Part shown: positions 1 to 51,288 of the stretch, piece after piece
Position numbering within the stretch: the first letter of the stretch is position 1
Layout of the letters: every line of letters begins with the position of its first letter
Program-made: the position numbers and the translations under genes
Notes under the pieces: generated by a model
The model's database searches: none
What the model was told of the DNA's origin: nothing
Seen by the model: only the letters and a program-made list of their open reading frames with translations
NCBI GenBank assembly: GCA_015075225.1
Contig: JABTUQ010000005.1
Location: forward strand, 107,075 to 171,074
Reading direction: 5' to 3'
From: Burkholderiales bacterium
GTDB lineage: Bacteria; Pseudomonadota; Gammaproteobacteria; Burkholderiales; Nitrosomonadaceae
DNA length: 64,000 nt

Positions 1-1393
1 GTACCAGAGGCACTGCCCAGCGCTGCCACCATGGCGCTCCGGGAGCCGTCACGTATTCACGTGGCCAGCCGATATTGATCAGTTCGAATAATGCCCAGGC
101 AAAAGCCACACCATTGATTACCAGACCCCATCTTCCCAGCCGGAGGGATCCCAGCGCGGGATTCCACCGGCCAGTTATCCGTGCATACAGGCCCACTCCG
201 GTTGTCATGGAAAACATGGCGTACAAGCCGCCCGTGCCAAACGCAATAATGGTTGCAACGGCTCCGTCATTCAGTCCGAAAAGCAGCCCGAGACCGGCCA
301 TGAACACGGTTCCGCCAATGGCATTGCGCGGTAATTGCGTTGTTTTGGTCACTTGAGAAAAGAAGGCAGGCAGATTACCTTCGCGTGCCATCGAAAACAC
401 GATACGCGAAGCATAGTTGACCACCGATGACCCGCAGGAAAGAAAAGCGGTGACGACGATTACCAGGAATGGTTTGGCGGCCCAGGCGCCGATCGTGCTT
501 GCAATGATGGGCGATACAGGGTCAGTGGTAGCGCTGGCTTCGATCAAGGTGGCATGATCTATCGACAGCATCAGCGCAGAAGAATTGAACAGCACGACAC
601 TTCCCACCGCCAGCAGTGACAAGAAAATGGCGCGCGGAATCATTCTTTCGGGGTGGCACACCTCCTCGGCAATGGTGGAACAGGAATCAAAACCGATGAA
701 TGCCCAGCCTGCAATGGCCAGTGCCGCTAGGAAGGCGGCCAGGCTGGTGGGGGCAAGCCCCGTTCCAATGTGTTGAAACAGCTCTGAAACTGGATAGATC
801 CGGAAAAAGGCAAACAGAACTAGTGCCACACAGATTGAGCCCAGTATCTCGGCACTGACACCGAGCAGATTGATGATCTTATAGACACGCTGACTGACGA
901 CGTTGACTGCCGTGCAAATCAGCAAAAAGAGAAATCCCCATAATACGACCGGGATTTCCTGCATGTTTTCCCCGGCAATTACCGCAGAAAGCCACATTCC
1001 ACCTGTATAGGCGGTTGTGGTCAGCATGGCGATGGTCGAGCTGACATAAATAGCCCCGGCATACTGCCCCGTTCTGGGGCCGACCAGCTGCCGTGACCAT
1101 TTGTAAGCGCCACCCGCTATGGGAAACTGCGATGAAAGCTCGGCATAGACCGTTGCCACCATGAGCTGCATGAACAGGCACAAGGCGAGCGCGGCGATCC
1201 ATCCGCCACCAGTCACCAGATTTTGGACACCAAAAATGGCGTACAGCCCCACTACCGGGGATACCACGGAGAAACCCAGCATAAAGCAGTTCCAGACGCT
1301 CATGCTGCGGCAAAGTTGGCCTGTTCCGGTTTCACTACCAGCCGGACTGTTTTTTTCTGTAAGGAGCGAATTTCCTGTGTCTTCTACCGGCAT
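1..1393 (-). CDS. APC-family permease, partial (guanidine/urea-associated)
   Basis: Reading the minus strand from the ATG at 1393 gives an open frame of 464 codons that leaves the window at the left edge without a stop. The start has a strong AGGGAGG ribosome site a few bases upstream. The product is a multi-spanning membrane protein with the early glycine/serine-rich helix of amino acid-polyamine-cation permeases and about a dozen hydrophobic segments. It faces the carboxylase gene at 2371 and has its own guanidine-I riboswitch at 1670-1768, so I infer import of guanidine or a related compound. Members of this family beside urea carboxylase genes are usually annotated as urea-carboxylase-related permeases. 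Substrate is inference; the family call is firm. Confidence 0.82.
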   Translation of the reverse strand, partial: MPVEDTGNSLLTEKNSPAGSETGTGQLCRSMSVWNCFMLGFSVVSPVVGLYAIFGVQNLVTGGGWIAALALCLFMQLMVATVYAELSSQFPIAGGAYKWSRQLVGPRTGQYAGAIYVSSTIAMLTTTAYTGGMWLSAVIAGENMQEIPVVLWGFLFLLICTAVNVVSQRVYKIINLLGVSAEILGSICVALVLFAFFRIYPVSELFQHIGTGLAPTSLAAFLAALAIAGWAFIGFDSCSTIAEEVCHPERMIPRAIFLSLLAVGSVVLFNSSALMLSIDHATLIEASATTDPVSPIIASTIGAWAAKPFLVIVVTAFLSCGSSVVNYASRIVFSMAREGNLPAFFSQVTKTTQLPRNAIGGTVFMAGLGLLFGLNDGAVATIIAFGTGGLYAMFSMTTGVGLYARITGRWNPALGSLRLGRWGLVINGVAFAWALFELINIGWPREYVTAPGAPWWQRWAVPLV

Positions 1394-1669
1394 ATCGATG
1401 CCTCCCTGGAAAAAATCAGGAACGTTGAATACCGCCCGGAAATGGAAATAACAGAATGCGCTGGAAAATCACTTTCGGCGGTAAACGGTTCTGGTTCCGG
1501 AATATCATCGCCGGGAAAGCCGACATCTGATGAAGCACTGGCTGCCGGATAGCAGCCATCATTTATTGAAAGTGAAAGCGGGGGTATTTGAGAACAATCC
1601 GGGGTTTGAACAACTGTGTGTGCATACGATAACTTTTCCACTTTGCCCTCCAGGAGTTAATGTTTAAAC

Positions 1670-1768
1670 ATCACCTCCCGGGCTTTTATCCCTCCGTGGA
1701 GCCCTGCAGCAGGGCCCGAAACTCTCGGACCAGCCACTTTCCCGTGGAAAGCCGGAACCCTAGTTTCG
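1670..1768 (-). promoter_or_regulatory. Guanidine-I (ykkC) riboswitch, minus strand
   Basis: The minus strand has the conserved blocks of the ykkC class I aptamer in order: CTAGGGTTCCGGC, then TGGTCCGAGAG, then CCACGG-GGGATAAAAGCCCGGGAG. A GC-rich hairpin of variable sequence lies between the second and third blocks, as expected for the P3 arm. The aptamer opens toward the APC permease at 1393. The 3' end GGGAGG is itself a possible ribosome site for a tiny ORF, so control could be translational as well as transcriptional. Known members bind guanidinium and switch downstream genes on. Confidence 0.93.
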
Positions 1769-2007
1769 TAAAGTTGTTGCGCTTCTGTTTACGTTGTTGG
1801 CCGTTAAACCCTGGCTGATTCCAGCTAGCACAAGCCAAAACATGGTGGCTATTATATACACCGGAAATTTTGAAAAACAAGAAAAAAGTTTCATCTTTCA
1901 ACGGAAAGGTTGCTGTTATTCAATGTATCTGGAACGCGAAATATTGTCGCGATGTGAAAGATCAGCTAACCTTGAAACCGCGATGACCGTTTTCAGGTAG
2001 CGCATTT

Positions 2008-2104
2008 TCAGGCTAGGGTTCCGGCTTTGCTGCAAGCGTCTGGTCCAAGAGCCCGAGGCTTCGCCATAACGAAGCTCCACGGAGGGATAAAAGCCCGGGA
2101 GATT
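2008..2104 (+). promoter_or_regulatory. Guanidine-I (ykkC) riboswitch, plus strand
   Basis: The plus strand carries CTAGGGTTCCGGC at about 2013, TGGTCCAAGAG at about 2040 and CCACGGAGGGATAAAAGCCC ending near 2096, with a hairpin between the last two blocks. This matches the ykkC class I consensus and is closely similar to the copy at 1670-1768. It faces the carboxylase gene that starts at 2371. Confidence 0.94.
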
Positions 2105-5300: not shown

Positions 5301-6009
5301 ATACAACCCGGCGCGCACCTGGACACCGGAAAATGCGGTGGGAATAGGAGGGGCTTATCTTTGCATTTATGGAATGGAAGGGCCTGGCGGATATCAATTT
5401 GTCGGAAGGACCGTACAAATGTGGAACCGTTACCGCCAAACCCGGGACTTTACTGCGGGCAAACCATGGTTGCTGCGCTTCTTTGATCAGATCAGGTTTT
5501 ATCCTGTTTCAGAACAGGAATTACTCGAATTACGCCAGGATTTTATTACCGGACGCTTTGCGCTGCGTACCGAAGAAACAGTATTCAGCCTGCGTGGCTA
5601 TCAGGCATTCCTGCAACAACACGCTGACAGTATTCAGGCATTTAAAGTCCGGCAGCAAAACGCTTTTGAGATCGAACGTGAACACTGGAAGGCCGGGGAT
5701 ACCCAGGAAAGCAACATCAGCGAGGAGGATGCGGGAGATAGCTACGATCCATCCAGCGCAGAAAGCAGACTCCCGGATGTACCCGACGGAGCACATGCCA
5801 TTAGCGCGGATGTCACCGGCACGGTATGGAAACTGTTGATCGAGACCCGGCAAGTGGTCAATGCTGGTGATCCGGTCATCATCATCGAATCCATGAAAAT
5901 GGAAATCACCCTGAGTGCGCCGGTTAGCGGCATCGTGCAACAGATCAGCTGCAGACAGGGCGATTATGTGTTTTCAGGCCAGATGTTGCTGATCGTTCAG
6001 GAAGAGTAG
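2371..6009 (+). CDS. Urea/guanidine carboxylase, biotin-dependent (1212 aa)
   Basis: The protein carboxylates guanidine (or urea) using ATP, bicarbonate and a bound biotin. Domains in order: biotin carboxylase N-terminal part (~1-110), ATP-grasp (~115-330, with GGGGIGMRLC), biotin carboxylase C-terminal part (~335-440), AHS2/KipA-like part from ~448 (with GVPPSGPMDG near 475), AHS1/KipI-like part around 800-1000, and a C-terminal biotinyl domain with ESMKME, the biotin lysine being K1176. The ATG at 2371 has AGGAG in front; upstream in-frame starts have none. Length fits free-standing urea carboxylases, without a fused allophanate hydrolase. The upstream guanidine-I riboswitch favours guanidine as substrate; that part is inference. 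No hydrolase gene for the product lies in the window. Confidence 0.92.
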   Translation: MFTKILIANRGAIACRVIRTLRRMGIGSVAVFTRADAQSRHVLDADESICIGEGIASESYLRADKILAAAHRTGAQAIHPGYGFLSENALFAEQCAAEGICFLGPTPEQIRTFGLKHTARALAQQLGVPMLPGTGLLEDPGTACEAAQRIGYPVMLKSTAGGGGIGMRLCHNQQELIDAYESVKNLAQSNFSNAGLFLEKYIGQARHIEVQIFGDGRGNVIALGERDCSMQRRNQKVIEETPAPGLSAATRKALQETAVRLGESVRYQSAGTVEYVYDAATGQFYFLEVNTRLQVEHGVTEMVTGVDLVEWMVLQGADALPPLESFTIQPQGVSIQARVYAENPARNFQPSSGLLSEVEFPEMARVETWVDAGCEVSAFYDPMLAKIIVHADDRDQAIARLIAALGNTTLYGIETNLDYLGQVLSGAVFRSGQVSTQFLSGFHYQPHTLDVLSAGVQTTVQDYPGRTGYWNVGVPPSGPMDGLAFRLANYLAGNPDDTAGLEITLAGPTLQFNCDTVIAVTGAPIDVWLDGKPLAQWQSHFIRAGLQLRFGKICQSGSRSYLAIQGGIQVPAYLGSRSTFTLGLFGGHAGRALCAGDVLHILPAENVEPRVVLPENIPQYTCHWEIGVLYGPHGAPDFFTETDIGIFFATDWKVHHNSSRTGVRLIGPKPQWARKDGGEAGLHPSNIHDNPYAVGAVDFTGDMPIILGPDGPSLGGFVCPAVIVQAELWKTGQLKPGDSVRFYPLTPEQALQLEKQQDEMVQAPDSISRTLPAISASSIRPGSPVLHRIPANDGQVQVVYRQSGDKYLLIEYGEPVLDIALHFRAHALMAWLQQSVEKGDLPGILDLTPGIRSLQIHYDSRLLSRDHLLNRLIAAETDLPAVDDMEIPSRIVHLPLSWDDAATRLAIEKYMRSVRPDAPWCPSNIEFIRRINGLDSMEEVRRIVFDASYLVMGLGDVYLGAPVATPLDPRHRLVTTKYNPARTWTPENAVGIGGAYLCIYGMEGPGGYQFVGRTVQMWNRYRQTRDFTAGKPWLLRFFDQIRFYPVSEQELLELRQDFITGRFALRTEETVFSLRGYQAFLQQHADSIQAFKVRQQNAFEIEREHWKAGDTQESNISEEDAGDSYDPSSAESRLPDVPDGAHAISADVTGTVWKLLIETRQVVNAGDPVIIIESMKMEITLSAPVSGIVQQISCRQGDYVFSGQMLLIVQEE

Positions 6010-7373
6010 GGCGCAGCCAGCGACAGTACAGGTTGCGCTGGCTTGAATGTGAGCTTCTGCCCCACGGAAAGCCGGTCGCTTCCCTTGTTCCATAAACGGA
6101 TTGTCTTGACATCGATCCCGTGACGCCTGGCGATCTCGTGGAGCGTGTCGCCTTTTTTGACGGTGTAAACGATATGCTCTTCCGGTTGAACACGTTTTGC
6201 AGCCGGTTTGAGCGAGTGGCTGGCGAGATAGGTCATTTCTCTTGCACTGCTACCGTCACGCGGGACCAGCAACGTCTGACCCTTTTTCAGTGTGGCGCGT
6301 TCGGAGATACCATTGATTTGAGCCAACCGGGCAACCGAGATACGATGCCGCTCTGCTAGATCACGCAAGGTTTCAGGTTTTTCTGCCTGGTAAACATGCC
6401 ACGACACCAGTACTTTGTCATAGCTTTCAAGGTTGTCTACAAAGATCTTGACATTGGTAACCGGTAACAACAAGGTGCGTGGAGAATCTTCCGCTTTGAT
6501 GACCGGCCTGTGATACGCCGGATTCAGTGCATTGAATTCATTTTCTGTAATTCCAGCCAGCCTGGCAGCCAGTTTTACATCAATTTGCTGATTTATCGTG
6601 ATCTGTTCGAAGTAAGGCCGGTTTGGTATCGGTTTCAGTTTGATGCCATAGCGGCGAGGGTTGGCAATGATATTCCGGATGGCGATCAGCTTGGAGATGT
6701 AGTTCCTGGTTTCAGCTGGCAAACCGAGTGCCTGGTAGCTGACCGCCTTATTTCCACCGTGATCTGTATCAATCACTTTTTTGAGGGATCCCTCTCCCCA
6801 GTTGTACGCAGCCAATGCCAGATTCCAGTTACCAAACATTTTATGCAGCATCTGCAGGTAATCCAGTGCGGCCTGGGTGGCTGCGATGATGTCACGCCGT
6901 TCGTCATGCCACCAATTTTGCTCCAGCCCAAACGCTTTTGCTGTCGAAGGCACAAACTGCCACAAGCCTGCTGCATGCCTGTGGGAATAGGCTTCCGGAT
7001 CAAACTCGCTCTCGATGATTGGCAGGAGCGCAATCTCGGCCGGCATGCGCCGGCGTTCTACTTCCTCAATGATGTAATGCAGGTAACGCTGACTGCGCTC
7101 AACAATATGATCCATGAATCGCTGGTTTTTGCTGAAATTGCTTTCATGTTGCCGTACTTCCTGGCTTTGGATATTGGCCAGGGAAAATCCGGTCCGTACG
7201 CGCATCCATAGATCATCCTGCTGCCTGTGCGACTGCACCTGATACTGTCTGGTATCGAGGGCAGTGATACTCATATTTTTTTCTAAAGCTTTGCCGGCTT
7301 GCGCCGTAACGGGAAGGGAGGCTAGTACTACTGCGGCAATCAATGCTAGTGAGGTCTTCGATTTTGTCTTCAT
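5997..7373 (-). CDS. mltD: Membrane-bound lytic murein transglycosylase D
   Basis: This 458-residue periplasmic enzyme cuts peptidoglycan glycan strands. It has an N-terminal signal sequence (residues 1-26), a soluble lytic transglycosylase domain with the catalytic glutamate at about residue 121 in PIIESEFDP, then GLWQF and AAYNWGEG motifs, and two LysM peptidoglycan-binding repeats at about 320-370 and 400-450. The internal ATG at 7373 was chosen because the signal peptide starts there. The lipobox seen in some MltD proteins is not evident. Its 3' end overlaps the 3' end of the carboxylase gene by 13 bases on the opposite strand. Confidence 0.88.
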   Translation of the reverse strand: MKTKSKTSLALIAAVVLASLPVTAQAGKALEKNMSITALDTRQYQVQSHRQQDDLWMRVRTGFSLANIQSQEVRQHESNFSKNQRFMDHIVERSQRYLHYIIEEVERRRMPAEIALLPIIESEFDPEAYSHRHAAGLWQFVPSTAKAFGLEQNWWHDERRDIIAATQAALDYLQMLHKMFGNWNLALAAYNWGEGSLKKVIDTDHGGNKAVSYQALGLPAETRNYISKLIAIRNIIANPRRYGIKLKPIPNRPYFEQITINQQIDVKLAARLAGITENEFNALNPAYHRPVIKAEDSPRTLLLPVTNVKIFVDNLESYDKVLVSWHVYQAEKPETLRDLAERHRISVARLAQINGISERATLKKGQTLLVPRDGSSAREMTYLASHSLKPAAKRVQPEEHIVYTVKKGDTLHEIARRHGIDVKTIRLWNKGSDRLSVGQKLTFKPAQPVLSLAAPYSS

Positions 7374-7672
7374 CCTGAATAAAACGAACGATTCGCCCGC
7401 ATAATTGGTTTCCTGAAAATAAAAAAGGCTGGTCACTCGTATTTTTTAATTTTAAAGTGAACCAGCCGGCTCGCTGCCATTTTACCTGAATTTACCAATC
7501 GACAATCTGCTGATTATCAACCATATCGAGTGACAGCTGATTTTTCATTGAAAATCGCCGTAACTCTCGTCAAGAGATTGTTCCCATTTATCAGACTGGA
7601 CTAATCTGGCGCTGCGTCTTAAACTTCCATGGGAGTTCATATTCTGCGTCAACTACATATAAGGAAACGGCA

Positions 7673-36688: not shown

Positions 36689-36724
36689 AATCCGCAGGAT
36701 TGAAGTAATCCAGGTCATCCTGGG

Positions 36725-37013
36725 GGGGAAGCCGGCCGATAAGCCGGGTTCTGTCGTGGACAGTCATTCCTCTAGACCTGCAGTTACCCGCAGGCTCAAG
36801 CGATCTACCCGCAGACTCGACGAGCAGCGTCATCATCTGCCTATTTGATCTTGCTCCGGATGGAGGTTACCGCGTTTCACCGCAACTAATACGCCCGTCT
36901 CTGTGGTCTGTTCCTCGCCTCACGGCGGCCGGCCATTAACCGGCATCCTGCTCTGTGGAGCCCAGACTTTCCTCTCCCTGTTACCAGGCGGCGACTGTCT
37001 GGCCGACTTCCCG
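36725..37013 (-). ncRNA. rnpB: RNase P RNA (class A)
   Basis: Reading the minus strand, the RNA begins near GAAGTCGGCCAGACAGTCGC, contains GAGGAAAGTCTGGGCTCC (conserved region I, normally GTCCGGGC), GAAACGCGGTAACCTCCATC in the middle, and ends with ACAGAACCCGGCTTATCGG. About 290 bases is short for the class; the core helices are nevertheless recognisable. It processes tRNA 5' ends. Ends are approximate. Confidence 0.95.
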
Positions 37014-50894: not shown

Positions 50895-50949
50895 TCGCCA
50901 ATTGAACTTTCTGGCAGCACCAACCTTAATCGTCAAGAATTCACGTTAG

Positions 50950-51288
50950 GGGCGATCCGGTTTCGACGTGGGTTGCAAAGCAGCGAGGATACTGAGGTTC
51001 AGCACTTCGTAAACAGCTGAAAAAATAGTCGCAAACGACGAAAACTACGCTTTATCGCTTAATCCGGCTAAACTCCGCACCGGTGGCCTCAACGCCGGGT
51101 CTGCAACAGACAGCGGAGTCACCAACGAGGATCGCGTTTTGTAGGGTTACTTTGCAGAACGCCAAAGCAGGTAACTCGCCCGTCGTCAGCCTGCCGGCTG
51201 GCGGATGCCAGCCAACCAAACAACATGGCGGCATGTAGAACTGTCTGTAGAGGACTTAGGACGCGGGTTCACCCCGCCGCCTCCACTA
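50950..51288 (+). ncRNA. ssrA: tmRNA
   Basis: Rescues stalled ribosomes. The 5' part GGGGCGATCCGGTTTCGACG and the 3' part with CGCCGCCTCCACTA form the acceptor arm. The tag begins at GCA 51031 and reads ANDENYAL, the standard tag start. Three oddities point to lost bases: only four Gs at the 5' end where pairing with CGCCTCC needs five; a one-base shift after ANDENYAL so the expected GCT TAA is out of frame; and a T-loop of five instead of seven bases. The terminal ACTA replaces ACCA. Confidence 0.93.

Follow-up and report, generated by a model that had tools for sequence, protein, structure and literature searches.

Two Guanidine-I riboswitch aptamers lie back to back in the window, that is, in the whole stretch of 64,000 nucleotides analysed here, and each is followed by a short open reading frame and then by one of two divergent gene arms (Table 1). 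A first-pass annotation had recognised a ykkC class I core in both, and this was borne out by a covariance search with the Rfam model, which gave a match on each strand, both over the gathering cut-off of 63 bits for Guanidine-I (RF00442). By these scores both aptamers are members of RF00442, and the bounds proposed for the pair (1670-2104) were correct to within 3 bases. Two perfect inverted repeats, of 28 nt and of 16 nt, are common to the two. They had been described as differing mainly in the variable arm, which does differ, but P1 and P2 differ too and belong to the main differences. A search of the whole genome (2.48 Mb, 19 contigs, 95.5% complete) gave no third RF00442 match at E <= 0.001. 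The window also holds genes for RNase P RNA and tmRNA. The ykkC fold is common to several ligand classes, subtype 2 recognising ppGpp, PRPP or a nucleotide, and the aptamers might bind one of these other ligands. This is very improbable, as RF00442 is the guanidine class, both scores are well over its cut-off and the downstream genes are guanidine genes.

Table 1. Features of the locus and related positions in other stretches (window coordinates unless a locus, L, or a genome and contig, G and C, is given).
Feature	Position	Strand	Remarks
APC-superfamily permease, predicted guanidine importer, 497 aa	2..1393	minus	PF13520, PF00324
Short upstream ORF, GTG start, 85 aa (VEKLS...)	1384..1641	minus	Stop overlaps permease start
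Downstream hairpin	1650..1681	minus	5' strand is the aptamer 3' end (CCGGGAG); 3' strand touches the short-ORF Shine-Dalgarno
Guanidine-I aptamer, permease arm	1774..1673	minus	RF00442 97.5 bits, E 1.5e-16, model 1-107 end to end
Promoter-like TTGTTT, 18 nt, TATAAT	-10 1856..1851; -35 1880..1875	minus	About 80 nt before the permease-arm aptamer
Guanidine-I aptamer, carboxylase arm	2002..2103	plus	RF00442 85.2 bits, E 8.7e-14, model 1-107 end to end
Short upstream ORF, ATG start, 58 aa	2165..2341	plus	Ends 29 nt before carboxylase start
Full-length guanidine carboxylase, 1212 aa	2371..6009	plus	TIGR02712 1979.5 bits, cut-off 1303.85
LysM/SLT lytic transglycosylase, convergent neighbour	5997..7436	minus	PF01464, PF01476
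RNase P RNA gene	36724-37010	minus	230.7 bits
tmRNA gene	50948-51288	plus	125.6 bits
cgdA (UAAP1), outside window, left	L003:11249-11971	permease strand	336 bits, over cut-off
cgdB (UAAP2), outside window, left	L003:10593-11252	permease strand	343 bits, over cut-off
Half carboxylase, 784 aa, outside window, left	L003:8163-10517	permease strand	
Biotin-synthesis genes	L169 6793-10761; L170 1841-3199; L074 6861-8249		
Stand-alone homologues of AH C-terminal domain (examples)	G075 C1:548079-548489; G034 C1:1437236-1437607		

The plus arm encodes a full-length carboxylase with biotin carboxylase (BC), carboxyltransferase (CT) A-D and biotinyl domains (Pfam). In a hand-counted alignment its Asp698 and Asp956 correspond to K. 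lactis positions 1330 and 1584, and Asp at both positions separates guanidine from urea carboxylases according to the available part of PMC11410670. With the full TIGR02712 match and both aspartates, the enzyme qualifies as a guanidine carboxylase. The minus arm starts with the permease, the last 33 aa and stop of which lie beyond the left window edge and which matches TIGR03428 with 152 bits, under the cut-off of 740. The annotation had placed a divergent permease and carboxylase behind the two aptamers, one arm serving uptake and the other carboxylation. The divergent layout stands and the permease is indeed the first gene of its arm, but that arm is not a permease alone and holds more than uptake: its order is permease-cgdA-cgdB-half carboxylase, and the carboxyguanidine deiminase is therefore present. 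CgdA and CgdB, which the complete guanidine carboxylase pathway requires, are both there. The last protein of the arm, the half, has only CT_A_B, CT_C_D and Biotin_lipoyl over the Pfam cut-offs. Like the urea and guanidine carboxylases (TIGR02712; K. lactis 5i8i, 3va7) it is built of the CT-BCCP part, over the whole of which it aligns with K. lactis urea amidolyase (5i8i residues 1053-1828). In contrast to them it has no BC domain, its TIGR02712 match beginning at 433 of 1201 and reaching 1135 of 1304 bits, under the family cut-off. Compared with the guanidine carboxylase operon of AOB (permease-cgdA-cgdB-carboxylase-allophanate hydrolase, as in the Nitrosospira-type genomes G120, G121 and G117; the N. 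multiformis arrangement is drawn in Fig. 1c of PMC11410670, a source available in part), the permease, deiminase and carboxylase families and the switch class are the same, and by gene content the locus is a variant of the guanidine carboxylase system. Here, however, there are two divergent arms, allophanate hydrolase (AH) was not found, and the half ends the permease arm.

Among the 85 genomes of the genus (taken to be Nitrosomonas), 10 have two RF00442 matches (G000, G001, G012, G020, G035, G063, G064, G078, G083, G100). They include all seven half-bearing Nitrosomonas, in which the permease-arm aptamer is over the cut-off in 7/7 and the carboxylase-arm aptamer in 6/7, the exception being G064 with 56.6 bits. 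The divergent pair sits on one contig, flanked by permease and carboxylase, in G000, G001, G035, G063 and G064; the aptamers of G012 are mid-contig on two different contigs, and those of G020 are on two contigs, one close to the contig end. The divergent layout is thus seen in at least 5 of the 7, the arms being apart in G012 and on two contigs in G020. In G064 (L072 ~7091-7190), by eye, unrelated, repeat-like sequence stands in place of the 5' part of the carboxylase-arm aptamer. Within each of the genomes G001, G063, G012 and G035 the two aptamers have P2 stem-loops that match exactly or to within 1 base, and P1 is type-specific; P2 divergence is larger in G000 and G020. Such near-identity within genomes suggests gene conversion, also between the copies of G012, which are on different contigs.

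The leaders of the two arms differ in strength of signal. At the promoter-like site of the permease arm, TGTATATAAT is present in 7/7 permease arms by eye; the box was not reported by a consensus scan, and no equally conserved promoter-like box was seen in the carboxylase arm. In the hairpin downstream of the permease-arm aptamer, 5-7 of 8 aptamer bases pair in all seven genomes, with z from -3.2 to -6.2 (36-nt single-sequence folds, mononucleotide shuffles). Its counterpart in the carboxylase arms of this clade is weak (z -0.4 to -3.5; four of six above -1.2 and two below -2; -0.92 in the window). Among 44 leaders, from loci and with lengths of our own choice and with the damaged carboxylase-arm aptamer of G064 omitted, the last strand of the aptamer pairs downstream with 5 or more of its 8 bases in 43 minimum-energy folds. 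Whole leaders (~390 nt) gave no informative folds (z 0.48 and -1.67). One expression platform known for the Guanidine-I class, though outside the Rfam definition, is an intrinsic terminator. No convincing one was found behind either aptamer: positions 1380-2400 hold two weak sites against a shuffle mean of 1.2, one on the strand opposite the permease arm and the other, with a stem of 5 pairs, 27 nt ahead of the permease start; the carboxylase arm has none.

The short ORFs offer another form of output. Their starts are kept in 7/7 genomes in both arms. In the permease arm the stop falls within -35 to +12 nt of the permease start in 6/7, three overlapping by 10 nt and three ending 19-20 nt before the gene (54 nt in G035), while four carboxylase-arm stops lie 25-34 nt and three 80-132 nt before the gene; counting both arms, 10 of the 14 ORFs stop at the main gene or a short distance ahead of it. 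First-order Markov shuffles gave P ~1e-8 for the stop position in the permease arm and ~5e-4 in the carboxylase arm, both too small because the accepted distance was set post hoc and the genomes are related. In many single-operon Nitrosomonas the permease start itself lies ~60 nt after the aptamer, and in Nitrosospira and some Nitrosomonas a short ORF does. A Shine-Dalgarno and start codon ~50-70 nt past the aptamer are common among the listed betaproteobacterial Guanidine-I leaders.

The simplest reading of these leaders is a guanidine-on switch of translation that is passed on by coupling. The two aptamers would head two divergent transcripts, most likely both switched on by guanidine, the first giving the importer, the CgdA/CgdB deiminase and the half and the second the complete guanidine carboxylase. 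Guanidine binding would hold the last strand of the aptamer and prevent the following hairpin, which would open the ribosome site of the short ORF, translation of the ORF being coupled to that of the main gene. A Rho-dependent step is possible. Alternatively, the ORFs could be frames that occur by chance in leaders of this length, with the switch acting on transcription via Rho or an unseen terminator. The N-terminal peptide is conserved over a few codons only and the carboxylase-arm signal is modest (4/7), which fits such chance frames. Against them, the stop lies no more than 20 nt from the permease start in six of seven genomes, and a start site past the aptamer is common in the listed betaproteobacterial leaders; we regard this alternative as possible, at odds clearly short of even. 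The coupled switch resembles the B12 riboswitches of M. tuberculosis (PMC11260477) and the SAM-II riboswitch of metA (PMC9373788), which, in the available parts of these sources, are linked either with short-ORF translation or with distant translation. Those belong to other ligand classes, whereas here two divergent arms serve one pathway. Compared with known Guanidine-I switches, the end-to-end model match is the same, here on both strands, and so is the control of guanidine degradation and permease genes, which such switches precede in AOB and comammox (PMC11410670, available sections). The differences are the two back-to-back copies, each with a short ORF mostly ending at or near the gene start, and the lack of an intrinsic terminator above chance behind the aptamers.

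The half is a conserved protein. In a tree of 50 CT parts, from loci of our choice, the 13 halves found in the family form one clade (100/100) within an AOB group (100/100); the branch uniting the AOB full-length enzymes is weak (89/67), and with it the support for any particular sister of the halves. Its dN/dS of 0.06-0.12 (36 within-genus pairs) is similar to that of the full enzyme (0.04-0.11), and judged by these ratios the half is under purifying selection. We read it as an old, maintained gene. The ESMKM biotinyl motif is intact in 13/13 halves, and the guanidine-type Asp pair is found in 13/13 halves and 37/37 aligned full enzymes. We also considered a urea-type half (Asn at K. lactis 1330) beside a guanidine-type full enzyme, which the aspartates in both sets reject. 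As a whole domain is missing, the half could be taken for a decaying remnant of a duplicated carboxylase; with 13 intact frames in two genera and one clade, rates much as in the full enzyme, and intact active-site and biotinyl motifs throughout, this is hardly credible. At 12 positions the residue is fixed differently in the halves (13/13) and the full enzymes (at least 36/37). Four of these are no more than 8 residues away from the signature aspartates (hypergeometric P 0.012, 285 eligible positions), a width picked post hoc, P being 0.57 at 6, 0.03 at 10 and 0.10 at 15.

In the six half-bearing Nitrosospira-type genomes, frames resembling biotin-synthesis genes lie between or beside the half and the full carboxylase by eye. 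Among the biotin genes tested, bioB, bioF, bioH and bioC of G123 and bioA of G126 are over the curated cut-off, and in G020 bioA is next to the permease switch and divergent from it.

The half-type match (profile ~432-1201) occurs in 7 of the 85 genus genomes (G000, G001, G012, G020, G035, G063, G064). AH over the cut-off was found in 34 of the 85 and in none of the seven, and urease also in none of the seven. Across the family, 13 of 125 genomes are half-bearing, namely the seven Nitrosomonas and six from g27, the Nitrosospira-type genus (G123, G126, G127, G130, G133 and the Nitrosovibrio G136). Of the 125, 51 have AH over the cut-off, none of them half-bearing, and two others hold weaker pieces. 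Within g27 (23 genomes) 16 have AH without the half and six the half without AH; the fragmented G132, with no AH found, is undetermined for the half and was not counted as half-bearing. Nor was G148, in which a 778-aa frame runs off the contig start in a 51% complete genome; in G027 and G071 the carboxylase matches are broken or cut within the BC part. Urease is present in five of the six half-bearing g27 genomes, G126 being the exception, and all 13 half-bearing genomes also carry the full-length enzyme. Among the best 80 of 590 related stretches, eight half-type frames were seen (four Nitrosomonas, three Nitrosospira, one Nitrosovibrio) and none outside AOB, in a scan by six peptide patterns that is no proof of absence. 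Eleven other short frames among these 80 run off the contig, contain part of the BC domain, are split or belong to other BC enzymes, one of them (L130) running off the contig with its half status undecided.

The exclusion of half and AH is one-sided in Nitrosomonas, where many genomes have neither, including G065 and G068, the sisters of the half-bearing clade in the MnmG tree, so that loss of AH possibly predates the arrival of the half. Half and AH are also parts of two operon versions, perhaps exchanged as blocks, in which case the exclusion rests on few events, and with so few independent events no P value was assigned. The MnmG tree is a single-gene tree from a short search, covering 70 of 117 genomes with an MnmG match. 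In it the AH-bearing G119 falls among half-bearing genomes (supports 86-95), and in the cassette tree its permease, cgdA and cgdB fall with the AH type, so that there was probably more than one change between half and AH versions in Nitrosospira. G105 (MnmG L189), complete-looking and within the half-bearing MnmG clade, gave no full carboxylase, switch, AH or urease.

The divergent arrangement seems to have a composite origin. The lytic transglycosylase beside the full carboxylase, which we take to be mltD-like, is outside the system and is a marker of the native carboxylase locus. It adjoins the full carboxylase in 7/7 half-bearing Nitrosomonas, and in the sister genome G065 it adjoins a single ordinary operon without AH. 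In the cassette tree (permease, CgdA and CgdB; 30 rows, with four of the six half-bearing Nitrosospira-type genomes, G127 and G130 having no permease in the stretch), the seven Nitrosomonas form a clade with Nitrosovibrio G136 (SH-aLRT 100), which the other three join next (100), and the remaining AOB lie outside. The half tree gives the same G136 link (100/99). In the full-carboxylase tree, which omits five distant outgroups (Polaromonas, Azospirillum, Alkanindiges, Acidithiobacillus and Methylovorus), the same seven group with Nitrosomonas G065 (100), inside Nitrosomonas. The conflict between these trees suggests that the cassette permease-cgdA-cgdB-half was imported and the full carboxylase inherited vertically. 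Together with the mltD locus, it points to a native carboxylase that was kept, upstream genes that were lost, and a cassette that came in divergently with its own switch, and import beside the native carboxylase would explain the back-to-back switches. The ancestor would have had an ordinary single operon beside mltD, in which place the carboxylase stayed; the cassette and its switch would have arrived from a Nitrosovibrio-like relative and settled divergently, so that the switches face away from each other.

The annotation had proposed that the pathway would give an ammonia oxidiser a route from guanidine to ammonia. Of this, the carboxylase and deiminase are present, but neither AH over the cut-off nor a urease alpha subunit was found in the genome of the window. 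The best TIGR02713 match, an amidase that is presumably GatA, reaches 197 bits against 511. An AH gene was possibly missed, as the genome is 95.5% complete. As it stands, the route to three ammonia is incomplete in its known form, and by known enzymes it would stop at allophanate, after one ammonia. Five loci of AH-less Nitrosomonas (L077, L078, L081, L087, L088) were inspected by eye past the carboxylase for another gene that could substitute for AH. No gene is common to all five there, although one is found in both L078 and L081. In several AH-less Nitrosomonas a stand-alone homologue of the AH C-terminal domain (profile ~420-562) was noted, in some with an internal stop.

The system could accordingly serve detoxification or nitrogen salvage and not the feeding of ammonia oxidation. 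This reading, to which we give odds somewhat below even, fits the missing AH and urease and also the physiology in the available parts of PMC11410670, where N. europaea is inhibited by 1 mM guanidine and guanidine supplied on its own was not used by the AOB tested. Among AOB that have the full gene set, three of five strains used it, and then only partially and only with ammonium present (same source). On the other hand, the first gene of its arm is a permease of importer type and not an exporter.

What the half does depends on how the missing BC domain is read. Biotin-dependent decarboxylases and transcarboxylases are numbered as classes II and III, and the propionibacterial transcarboxylase is a CT plus biotinyl enzyme without BC. 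The half is the same as these enzymes (e.g. oxaloacetate decarboxylase) in its CT and biotinyl domains without BC; they, however, belong to other CT families, and we know of no urea-type CT that acts as a decarboxylase or transcarboxylase. Among biotin enzymes BC is confined to carboxylases according to the available part of PMC3199775, and by this definition the half, with CT and a biotinyl Lys and no BC, has the make-up of a decarboxylase or transcarboxylase. Since no half-bearing genome yielded AH over the cut-off, allophanate would be its natural substrate, and we tentatively propose, with less than even confidence, that the half may act in place of AH, using biotin to decarboxylate allophanate or to transfer its carboxyl group. 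If it removes CO2 from allophanate the product would be urea, usable by the five of six half-bearing Nitrosospira-type genomes that have urease. A counterpoint is that the signature residues of the half are guanidine-type and not urea-type, and if it makes urea, no urease that could use the product was detected in the seven Nitrosomonas.

A more specific form, which we consider unlikely, is a guanidine:allophanate transcarboxylase, in which CO2 would pass from allophanate to the next guanidine with release of urea. With CgdAB this would make a cycle, net guanidine + water -> urea + ammonia, in which the ATP used by the full carboxylase would serve priming only. Were it true, the cycle would do the work of guanidinase without nickel and almost without ATP, under the control of two guanidine switches. 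In Nitrosospira it would feed urease (present in 5/6), and Nitrosomonas eutropha-type strains would excrete the urea. Another doubtful but conceivable view, which we rate at around one chance in three, holds that the half is a second guanidine carboxyltransferase borrowing the BC of the full enzyme or of AccC and adding capacity only, the allophanate decaying or leaving the cell. The guanidine-type aspartates of both proteins, their 59-63% identity over the CT part in the seven Nitrosomonas, a stand-alone AccC-like BC (G000 C1:15773) and the full-length enzyme in all 13 genomes are consistent with such a partner. It does not account, however, for the restriction of the half to genomes without detected AH, nor for the 12 fixed differences with four of them near the signature aspartates.

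Taken as a whole, the best explanation is a locus of two switched divergent arms with an imported cassette and coupled short ORFs, to which we give a probability of about 0.7; the proposed role of the half at the allophanate step, which belongs to it, is on its own less probable, as stated above. What can be read directly from the DNA is the aptamers, the gene content, the signature residues, the selection on the half, the lack of detectable AH and urease and the conflict between cassette and carboxylase trees. No report of a BC-less guanidine carboxylase, a divergent switch pair or the exclusion of half and AH was met in the open PMC literature searched, as far as its texts were available, and in the available text of PMC11410670 the words 'truncated' and 'eutropha' are both absent. 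Guanidine is named as one possible role in N. europaea in the accessible text of PMC13356812 (section 13), and we infer that the three 'urea amidolyase' genes described there include the half. The same section concerns phage-infected Nitrosomonas, and guanidine could appear within infected cells.

Guanidine use separates ammonia oxidisers, and its use by strains is predicted from gene lists. The half-bearing Nitrosomonas clade has the carboxylase, the deiminase and the switches without detected AH or urease, and instead a conserved biotin enzyme without the ATP-using domain, and in g27 the half stands in place of AH, one or the other being present in each of the 22 genomes scorable for both. 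The back-to-back switches provide both a readable history, namely import of a cassette beside a native gene, and a testable design of a switch plus a short ORF. If the half returns CO2 from allophanate, the urea-carboxylase family would gain a new reaction, and the nitrogen yield per guanidine would be different.
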